From positions 1 through 64,000 of the forward strand of contig CANMTR010000009.1 in NCBI GenBank assembly GCA_947500825.1: 64,000 nt of DNA. Reading direction: 5' to 3'. A model generated the notes under the pieces. That model was not told the DNA's origin and ran no database searches. It saw nothing but the letters and a program-made list of their open reading frames with translations. Both the position numbers and the translations under genes were made by a program. This document shows positions 38,608 through 51,773 of this stretch, piece by piece; within the stretch, counting starts at the first letter, position 1; each line of letters opens with the position of its first letter. Source of the DNA: an uncultured Paracoccaceae bacterium. Its GTDB lineage: Bacteria; Pseudomonadota; Alphaproteobacteria; Rhodobacterales; Rhodobacteraceae.

Positions 38608-38713
38608 GTGGCGTCCTTTCTGGAGCGGGGCGCACGGGCGGAGAGGGGCGCGGGGGGACCCGGCGCTCCGTCATCCGACACCGGAACACCCCGTCCGGTT
38701 TCGTCTGTCTCGG

Positions 38714-38888
38714 CGCTGGCAGGTCTCCCGGCTTGCGGATGCAGGGCCCTTGGGCCCGTCGGTCGCCCGGCCTTCCCGACCCCCGCAAAGGGGCAGTGGC
38801 GCGCGGGGGCGACCTCTCCGGTCACGGTCGCGGGGGCGGCTGAGGTCGTCCTCATTCCCTTTTCACCCGTTTGACACGGGCACCAGCA
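38714..38888 (-). promoter_or_regulatory. Cobalamin (AdoCbl) riboswitch
   Basis: On the minus strand the 5' end reads TGGTGCCCGTG then CGGGTGAAAAGGGAA; the core has GCCACTGCCCC near 38797 and the 3' end AAGCCGGGAGACCTGCC (B12 box region, about 38717-38733). This order and spacing are those of the cobalamin riboswitch. It precedes DUF1636-cobW-cobN by about 105 bases; cobalamin binding should shut off that operon. Confidence 0.92.
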
Positions 38889-38924
38889 TGGTGCGACTTG
38901 GCCCGGCCGCCCCTCCTTTGTCAA
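38871..38924. promoter_or_regulatory. Opposed promoter candidates between riboswitch and cobO
   Basis: TTGACA occurs on the minus strand at 38919-38924 (17 bases later CCAAGT, upstream of the riboswitch) and on the plus strand at 38871-38876 (17 bases later CGACTT, upstream of cobO). Both -35 boxes match consensus while the -10 boxes are poor. The plus-strand box lies within the riboswitch 5' part. Confidence 0.4.
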
Positions 38925-50742: not shown

Positions 50743-50785
50743 GTGATCTCCTGGGAGGTTATCCGCTGCTGGCCGACGCAATAAA

Positions 50786-50818
50786 CGAAAAGGGACTGCC
50801 GGCAAGCGGCAGTCCCTT
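50786..50818 (-). terminator. Strong intrinsic terminator of the tiny gene at 50889-50945
   Basis: A perfect 12-bp stem (790-801 with 807-818 after 50000; AAGGGACTGCCG / CGGCAGTCCCTT) with loop GCAAG is followed on the minus strand by TTTT. It lies 71 bases after the tiny gene's stop and 44 bases before the exchanger gene's GTG. Confidence 0.85.
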
Positions 50819-50888
50819 CGAATGTTCCGGAGATGGGCCTGGTTAGAGCAGGCGCCCAACCCGTGTCGTCACGTCCGAGGGGCTGCCC

Positions 50889-50945
50889 TCAGATGCGCGC
50901 CTCGCGGGCTGTTCCGACCTCATACTCCACTATCATTCTAGACAC
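50889..50945 (-). CDS. Tiny 18-residue ORF with near-complete Shine-Dalgarno; unknown function
   Basis: GTG start at 50945 encodes MSRMIVEYEVGTAREARI and TGA at 50889. Immediately upstream GAAAGGAGGTGGTCC (50947-50961) is complementary to about 15 bases of the 16S rRNA 3' end (one G-U wobble), with 7 bases from GGAGG to GTG. The transcript ends at the 12-bp terminator and has a 71-base 3' part without other ORF. TTGACA at 51004-51009 (minus) is a candidate -35. A regulatory leader, small RNA with a peptide, or micro-protein are all possible. I know no characterised homologue with confidence. Confidence 0.55.
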   Translation of the reverse strand: MSRMIVEYEVGTAREARI

Positions 50946-51016
50946 TGGACCACCTCCTTTCGTTTGATTTCGACTAGGGGAACCGTGGCACAGATTCTGC
51001 CCGTGTCAAACGAAAA

Positions 51017-51064
51017 CACGGCCGGGCGAAATCACGGCCGGGCGACATCACGCCGGGCCCGGTG
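51017..51064. repeat. 16-bp tandem repeat after the VUT-family transporter gene
   Basis: CACGGCCGGGCGAAAT (51017-51032) and CACGGCCGGGCGACAT (51033-51048) are adjacent, differing at one base; a third degenerate unit CACGCCGGGCCC starts at 51049 inside the last codons of the transporter. It could be simple slippage expansion of a GC-rich tail. Confidence 0.6.
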
Positions 51065-51668
51065 CGCGCCTGTCGGTCAGGGCCCGGAACGGGGCCAGCG
51101 ACACCAGCGCCAGCGACAGCTTGACCAGCCAGTCGGCGGCCGCCAGCGACATCCACAGCGGCGCGGAGGGGCCGACCCCGATGAGCGGCAGGACCTCGTT
51201 GGCCCAGGCCACGTCGGCGGCGGGAAGCAGGCCCGAGAGCGCGGCGGAGAAGGCGATGGTGAAGAACAGGCCGGTGTCGAGCGCCGAGCCCAGCACCGAG
51301 GAGGCCAGCGGCGCCGACCACCAGCGCCCGCCCCGGACCCGGTCGAACACGGCGATGTCGGCGAGCTGGGCCAGGAGGAACGCGGTGCCCGAGGCCAGCG
51401 CCACCCGCGCGCTGACCAGGGGGCCGAACTGCCCCTCGATCTGGGTGCCGGCCAGCGAACAGGCCACCCCGACGGCGAAGCCCGCCAGGACCACTTTGCG
51501 CGCCGCGGCGGGGCCGTGGAGGCGGTTGGTCACGTCGGTGACGAGGAAGGCGAGCGGATAGGTGATCGCCCCCCAGGTGAGCCACTGGCCCAGCAGGTAC
51601 TGGACGAGGATGTTGGAGGCCACGACGATCGCGGCCATGGCGAGGATGGCGGGCAGGAGGCGGGGCAT
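51048..51668 (-). CDS. VUT-family (YhhQ) queuosine-precursor-type transporter
   Basis: 206 aa, about five to six helices. It has AAIVVASNILVQYLLGQWLTWGAITYPLAFLVTDVTNR, the family's N-terminus, and LADIAVFDRVR. YhhQ imports 7-cyano-7-deazaguanine or preQ1-type bases for queuosine. I looked for a preQ1 riboswitch in the 110 bases upstream and saw none. The substrate is therefore by family only. Confidence 0.85.
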   Translation of the reverse strand: MPRLLPAILAMAAIVVASNILVQYLLGQWLTWGAITYPLAFLVTDVTNRLHGPAAARKVVLAGFAVGVACSLAGTQIEGQFGPLVSARVALASGTAFLLAQLADIAVFDRVRGGRWWSAPLASSVLGSALDTGLFFTIAFSAALSGLLPAADVAWANEVLPLIGVGPSAPLWMSLAAADWLVKLSLALVSLAPFRALTDRRAPGPA

Positions 51669-51773
51669 GTCGTTCGTCCGTTTTGACAAGGTGACCGGAG
51701 ACTTGGACGCGGGCGACGAGGGGCCGCCGGCGTCGGGCGTGGCGATAGCGCCCGGGCGCGGCCTTGGCAAGGA

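Follow-up and report, generated by a model that had tools for sequence, protein, structure and literature searches.

Organization of the locus

The window, that is the whole 64,000-nucleotide stretch of DNA that was analysed, carries a small RNA gene on its minus strand, on which all features given below are read. An extended Shine-Dalgarno (SD) sequence, a 17-nt complement of the 16S rRNA 3' tail, occupies 50944..50960 (established by the 16S duplex and a family block search), with GAAAGGAGGTGGTCC at 50961-50947, and the end of its GGAGG is spaced 7 nt from a GTG codon. This GTG (50945-50943) opens an ORF of 18 codons, MSRMIVEYEVGTAREARI, closed by a TGA stop at 50891-50889 (whole ORF 50889..50945), and a small hairpin, GAGGG-CAGC-CCCTC, lies at the stop codon (50877..50890; from the sequence and the MFE fold only). 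An intrinsic terminator (50789..50819) with a 13-bp stem (50819-50789) and then TTTTCGTTT ends the gene. An earlier note on this DNA had described a 12-bp terminator 71 bases past the stop; the terminator is there, although we measured a stem of 13 bp that begins 69 nt past the stop codon.

Upstream of the SD, the hexamer TTGACA (51004..51009) is a putative -35 element of the RNA's own presumed promoter, with a poorly defined -10 and a presumptive transcription start. TTTGAC is invariant in 12/12 aligned loci of the genus (own included) and the final A is present in 11; a simple sigma-70 scan found no promoter at the locus, and the -35 is a consensus reading. The upstream neighbour, outside the RNA, is a gene for a Vut_1 (PF02592) transporter (51048..51770), the usual address of the RNA in Rhodobacterales. 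Elsewhere in the window, we observed a Cobalamin riboswitch (38701-38902, minus strand, 86.3 bits).

Match of the Shine-Dalgarno sequence to the 16S rRNA tail

The genome's own 16S gene (locus L033, in an rRNA operon identified by Rfam) has the 3' end GGATCACCTCCTTT, with which the site forms 17 contiguous pairs, two of them G-U, at -30.7 kcal/mol. The long anti-SD match in front of a tiny GTG-initiated frame, as first noticed from the sequence, was thus confirmed. The further claim that such a match is rare held for the exact core and not for the duplex energy: exact AAAGGAGGTGRTCC is found twice in the 3.93-Mb genome, here and, in antisense orientation, at the 16S gene's 3' end, whereas by raw duplex energy the site ranked second among 63,978 windows (64 kb, both strands, step 2, overlaps merged). 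With one mismatch allowed, AAAGGAGGTGRTCC had 4 matches in the genome versus 9 for the reversed control pattern, and the count was therefore not raised. Raw duplex energy was rejected as proof of exceptionality, since the site is only the second-best in a GC-rich 64 kb; what is exceptional is the contiguous match to the SD-binding tail.

Distribution and genomic neighbours

By DNA similarity, the locus was present in 13/13 genomes of the same genus (best E from 4.3e-15 to 1.9e-50). The SD block (at most 2 mismatches) was found in 158 of 198 family genomes, against 3 of 198 for the reversed control pattern, and the positive genomes had a single match each, with two exceptions. These two (G414 and G492) had two matches each, the extra ones having two mismatches and being possibly due to chance. 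About four in five Rhodobacterales genomes accordingly have the RNA (158/198 in the family and, by the covariance model described below, 124/149 in the order), usually in a single copy, and a script detected a terminator in 90 of the 91 Rhodobacterales loci with enough flank.

In a sample of 289 genomes drawn from the class, 24, own genome among them, had an exact match to a longer block (control 0). An ORF of 18-30 codons came next in 24/24 of these loci, and a permissive script detected a hairpin with a T run in 20/24. A scan of named genomes yielded at least 120 stretches with the block, and 117 of 120 such stretches had an ORF of at most 33 codons; Paracoccus, Roseovarius, Bosea, Methylobacterium, Bradyrhizobium, Ancylobacter, Brevundimonas and Azospirillum were among the matches listed. 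Also among the matches listed were two MAG contigs labelled Gemmatimonadetes/Gemmatimonadota (L062, L082) with the block and an ORF of 20-21 codons. In Azospirillum B21 (L117) and in L153 and L168, the block precedes an ORF of 57-59 codons that looks signal-peptide-like by eye. Seven viral-contig records (L180-L186) had the block as well, possibly in host flanks of proviruses, with ORFs of the Bradyrhizobium type (14-16 codons; L180, L181, L182, L184), of the MSH type (L183, L186) and of 71 codons (L185); the lineage sets used below for ORF parsing, P3 permutation, accessibility and energy permutation possibly include up to six viral-contig loci. A plasmid search gave no match.

Of the 93 Rhodobacterales loci, 81 have a Vut_1-like gene upstream; at least 700 nt of upstream sequence was available in 86 of the 93, and the gene is absent in nine of those 86. 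In the window, the RNA is followed on its own strand by a gene for a Na/Ca exchanger; of the 81 Rhodobacterales loci in which the downstream sequence spans 1 kb or more, only 4 have the exchanger at this place. Other downstream Pfam matches in Rhodobacterales were a DEAD helicase (L063) and NAPRTase (L132), and the neighbours in other lineages included peptidase M13, an RNB-domain protein and Dus, among others (4/10 neighbour proteins in one set and 4/10 in the other were without a Pfam match). The variation of the downstream gene argues against a leader or attenuator, one of the roles first proposed for the RNA. Across the genomes compared, the RNA behaves as a free-standing gene that is independent of the downstream gene, and the small RNA with its own terminator, as originally suspected, proved real and conserved.

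Conservation of the reading frame

Conservation of the frame in relatives had been set beforehand as a test, and it was found: the stop comes directly after codon 18 in 85 of 93 Rhodobacterales ORFs (TGA 42, TAG 27, TAA 16), and one (L067) of the other 8 is cut by the locus end. TGG was never seen at the stop position, against 13.3 expected if the last two letters varied freely (n=85; Fisher p 3e-11, relatedness uncorrected), and on a rapidly built tree of the upstream gene for 78 loci, one stop codon was replaced by another at least 27 times, and stop and non-stop were interchanged 6 times. The SD block was the criterion by which loci were gathered, which leaves the stop as an independent feature, and its persistence as a stop codon argues that ribosomes read the frame. 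By this comparative evidence, the stop codon of the 18-codon ORF is under selection.

The peptide behaved otherwise. A micro-protein with low dN/dS had been suggested, but pN/pS was 0.7-1.0 in frame and the coding frame was not the lowest of the three: 0.89 for codons 3-17 versus 0.71 and 0.85 in the other frames (0.97 in frame for codons 3-18), and 0.72 versus 0.60 and 0.86 for close pairs. By sub-region, pN/pS was 1.74 for codons 3-7 (the partners of the start region), 0.75 for the unpaired codons 8-12 and 1.02 for the third sub-region. No purifying selection on amino acids was thus seen by pN/pS in the three frames, the sub-regions or the close pairs. Ser2 and Glu7 are invariant in 84/84 unique 18-codon ORFs, and both lie in or beside paired positions. 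In other lineages, the block is followed by unrelated peptides, almost always 14-33 residues long (57-71 in four parsed loci). The mRNA of a type I toxin encodes a short hydrophobic membrane peptide, a description that does not suit MSRMIVEYEVGTAREARI or the relatives compared, as they bear several charged residues (judged by eye). The ORF therefore looks as if it were kept for its length and stop and not for its peptide, which would make it a clear case of evolution keeping translation (start, length, stop) while leaving the peptide free.

Fold and burial of the Shine-Dalgarno sequence

For the fold, we aligned 87 of the 93 Rhodobacterales loci, the set left after dereplication of the 91 whose flanks were long enough. 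In the four helices counted, 91.7% of cells were paired (87 sequences), compared with 42-53% when the partners were slid; double changes occurred in 17 of 35 pairs (equalled by 5 of 500 shuffles) and the covariation score was equalled by 0 of 500, in controls that, like the permutations below, leave relatedness in. The first helix, P1, joins the SD core GGAGGTG (50951..50957) to an internal anti-SD, CATCTCC (50829..50835), in both the alignment and the MFE fold, with 99.0% of cells paired in the 87 sequences and one-sided changes only. The second, P2, is a hairpin enclosing the start codon (50926..50949, TCCAGTGTC / GATAGTGGA; alignment), with 96.4% of cells paired in the 87 sequences, one-sided changes only and one G-G mismatch in the window. 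Since the SD block does not vary and also served as the key for the search, the support for P1 and P2 comes from consistency and not from double changes. The third helix, P3, is based on covariation and pairs a strand inside the ORF (50903..50911, within codons 12-15) with one downstream of the stop (50857..50865); its outer three pairs were formed in 77.8% and its inner six in 79.1% of cells, with double changes in 6/6 inner pairs. In a permutation test, the own mean of P3 was -16.2 versus -12.0, a value unreached in 10,000 permutations (relatedness not removed). The terminator stem was 94.2% paired, with two-sided changes in 10/10 counted pairs in the family. The 3' part, for which a role as the functional RNA had been considered, thus matters as the partner of the SD, through CATCTCC, and of the ORF. 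Immediately 5' of the internal anti-SD, a nearly invariant CTAAC (50846-50842; alignment columns 155-159) takes part in none of the counted helices.

The MFE of the window RNA was -87.3 kcal/mol (z -4.31), with the same general arrangement as the alignment fold. In the accessibility comparison, for which at most 24 loci were sampled per type, the SD of Rhodobacterales had a predicted unpaired probability of 0.009 versus 0.315 with the rest of the RNA shuffled (lower in 24/24), and the start codon was below its shuffles in 21/24. The Bradyrhizobium type was buried as well (start codon 0.006 versus 0.330, lower in 16/16; SD lower in 15/16). Burial of the SD throughout the class was rejected, because it was not predicted for the MSH type, to which the loci over the CC2171 cut-off belong (SD 0.320 versus 0.256 in shuffles, 24 sampled), nor for the MSS type (0.396 versus 0.299, 24 sampled), both being more open than their shuffles. 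ORFs of at least 40 residues and short-flank loci were left out of this comparison, the P3 permutation and the energy permutation.

Two further pairings were considered. The P2 loop segment GAATG (50934..50938) could form a pseudoknot with the pre-terminator segment CATTC (50820..50824): its 3 pairs had 94.2% of cells paired and the pair 25-190 covaries (GC57/AU21/UA1). In the energy test of the ORF start against the pre-terminator region, permuted pairings did at least as well as the own pairing in 4954 of 5000 cases for Rhodobacterales (80/84 loci), which argues against the pseudoknot, in 1005 of 5000 for the Bradyrhizobium type (16/17 loci), in 4 of 5000 for the MSH type (48/57 loci) and in 0 of 5000 for the MSS type (27/29). 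On inspection of the alignment, an antiterminator helix (columns 160-168/208-213) was set aside, as it pairs in 76-95% of rows and has no covariation. In 37 aligned rows of the MSH type, pairing is possible between the RBS-start region and codons of the ORF, with 9 of 10 pairs available in at least 31 rows and the tenth in 20; these 37 were chosen from 46 rows, 9 divergent ones being left out by eye, from a row list already without duplicates, long ORFs and a few named rows, both of which favour the counted pairs.

Relation to the CC2171 RNA family

The Rfam model of CC2171 (RF01867) aligned to the window RNA from end to end (model 1-159) at 39.2 bits, below the gathering threshold of 75. In the order, RF01867 matched at E<=0.001 in 124 of 149 genomes and exceeded the cut-off in 0 of 149, and in 14 control genomes it matched in Caulobacter only. 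Of 20 class loci, 8 reached the cut-off, and 8/8 further loci of other types matched below it. A match to sX14 was set aside (27.9 bits versus a cut-off of 80; it covers the 3' part with the terminator).

Like CC2171, the RNA has the 5' block GAAAGGAGGUGRUCCAGUGUCU, a terminator and a gene of its own. It differs in its ORF of 18 codons, compared with 22-26 codons in the 8 loci passing the cut-off, and in having a local hairpin at the start, the P3 helix and an SD predicted to be buried, unlike that of the MSH type; sequence likeness outside the 5' block is weak. MSH-type RNAs, which are related to CC2171, have a segment a few codons into the ORF that pairs with a pre-terminator segment, and this may apply here too. 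At the place of the CC2171 pre-terminator helix CAUUGUC/GACAAUG, the window has GAATG/CATTC, with 3 pairs and one covarying column and with the energy permutation against it. As the match consists mostly of the 5' block, homology beyond the block would rest on the shared architecture. On the evidence of the sequence comparisons, the Rhodobacterales RNA is a diverged, unannotated branch of the CC2171 family that was missed by the Rfam cut-off. CC2171 reportedly goes back to Landt et al. 2008, and we found no study of its function among the open-licence papers listed for it.

Interpretation

The comparisons support the conservation of the RNA, its fold, selection on its stop codon, a lack of selection on amino acids and independence of the downstream gene; the start of transcription, actual translation, switching between states and any target are inferred. 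With moderate confidence, we propose that the gene specifies a translation-gated regulatory RNA of the CC2171 kind that is at the same time a minimal mRNA. The product would most likely be the regulatory RNA itself, whose state, accessible 3' strand or stability is set by translation. Folding and ribosome engagement would be mutually exclusive: in the folded state, CATCTCC near the 3' end would sequester the SD by pairing and the hairpin would hold the start codon, and the long match to the 16S tail would be the means by which a 30S subunit invades the buried site and displaces the fold. A ribosome would then cover 18 codons to the fixed stop, opening P3 (the second half of the ORF with the 3' part) en route, so that the stop would limit how far the fold is opened. 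What is selected would be the fold and a short translated distance, not the peptide. Candidate outputs of the open or closed state are a freed anti-SD-like 3' strand, altered stability of the RNA and titration of 30S subunits. A dual-function sRNA would combine control of targets at the RNA level with a translated ORF, and the stop-codon selection favours only the latter of these two.

We regard it as unlikely that the locus is instead a micro-protein gene, with the 18-residue peptide as its product and the strong SD and fold only setting its amount. The exact length of 18 codons in 85 of 93 loci, the stop selection, the invariance of Ser2 and Glu7 and the lowest sub-region pN/pS in unpaired codons would suit such a gene, but the in-frame pN/pS is not the lowest of the frames and peaks in codons 3-7, the invariant codons coincide with paired positions, and the peptides that follow the SD block in other lineages are unrelated. 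A ribosome decoy, in which the 17-nt match captures 30S subunits and tunes global translation while the ORF and stop merely allow release, seems to us distinctly improbable. That the only other exact AAAGGAGGTGRTCC in the genome is the 16S antisense, and that the SD block is what lineages of the class have in common, would speak for it, and it would fit the MSH and MSS types better, their SD not being buried; in Rhodobacterales, however, a buried site is the reverse of what a good decoy requires, nearly every positive genome has a single match, and a selected stop at a fixed codon would be unneeded. The ribosome titration proposed earlier may apply, although the selected stop codon points to real translation over binding alone.

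A leader that attenuates the downstream gene, suggested by a short ORF and a terminator upstream of the same-strand exchanger gene, is highly improbable and already largely refuted: the exchanger rarely follows the RNA while Vut_1 usually precedes it, other neighbours are found elsewhere, and the antiterminator pairing is without covariation. That the RNA is a trans-acting antisense sRNA, whose CTAAC..CATCTCC strand pairs with the SD regions of other mRNAs and whose ORF serves only as a gate, is in our judgement rather improbable. Engagement of the SD would release the 3' strand, which resembles an anti-SD, and the nearly invariant, unpaired CTAAC stands alongside it, but the T runs are short, unlike those of Hfq-binding sRNAs, for which seven or more T/U at the 3' end are given as a criterion in the available text of PMC5558911; 0 of 90 terminators had seven or more. 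More tentatively than our preferred reading of a translation-gated RNA, we suggest a ribosome gauge, in which free 30S subunits, through the 17-bp pairing with the 16S tail, compete against the internal anti-SD, so that the active form would report the number of free ribosomes; each initiation might unzip the fold over a short fixed track (18 codons here) with the peptide as a by-product, which may have been turned over freely while the SD block stayed across the class. If this is true, lineages with an unburied SD would need another internal pairing or occupancy alone.

Comparison with known systems

According to the available text of Schrader 2014 (PMC4117421), 75.4% of Caulobacter genes have no SD; because of this, RNAs of the class with an extreme SD are odd, and they would allow a direct test of what the 16S tail does in these bacteria. 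In the same text, Caulobacter ncRNAs are mostly intergenic and such regions were untranslated by ribosome profiling, although two formerly predicted ncRNAs proved to be translated; by analogy, the untranslated intergenic ncRNA regions may count against our reading of a translated RNA. Of the Caulobacter ncRNAs of 2008, CrfA alone had been followed up according to the accessible portion of a 2018 paper (PMC5988900). The available portions of PMC5082802, PMC12559287, PMC4809877 and PMC11005374 held nothing tied to the RNA, and among the Paracoccus sRNAs in that of PMC5107571 none could be mapped to the locus.

The Bradyrhizobium-type RNA (mostly 14 codons, KRCHLA) shares the SD block, a short ORF and a buried SD and start region with the Rhodobacterales RNA, but has another ORF, and the predicted partner of its SD, CACCTC, lies inside the ORF. 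Pos19 of R. sphaeroides is likewise a small RNA of a related organism and is coding according to the title of PMC5036791; in the available text, it differs in its length of 219 nt and in belonging to the RpoE regulon. The leader peptide/attenuator RNA rnTrpL of S. meliloti is similar in its short ORF (14 aa) and in that the small RNA can act alone, as the accessible text of PMC10117765 describes it, whereas it is leaderless, compared with the extreme SD here, and the RNA studied here has no conserved downstream gene. Compared with the available descriptions of CC2171, what appears new in the Rhodobacterales branch is an SD predicted to be buried by a conserved fold and an ORF apparently kept for its length and stop.
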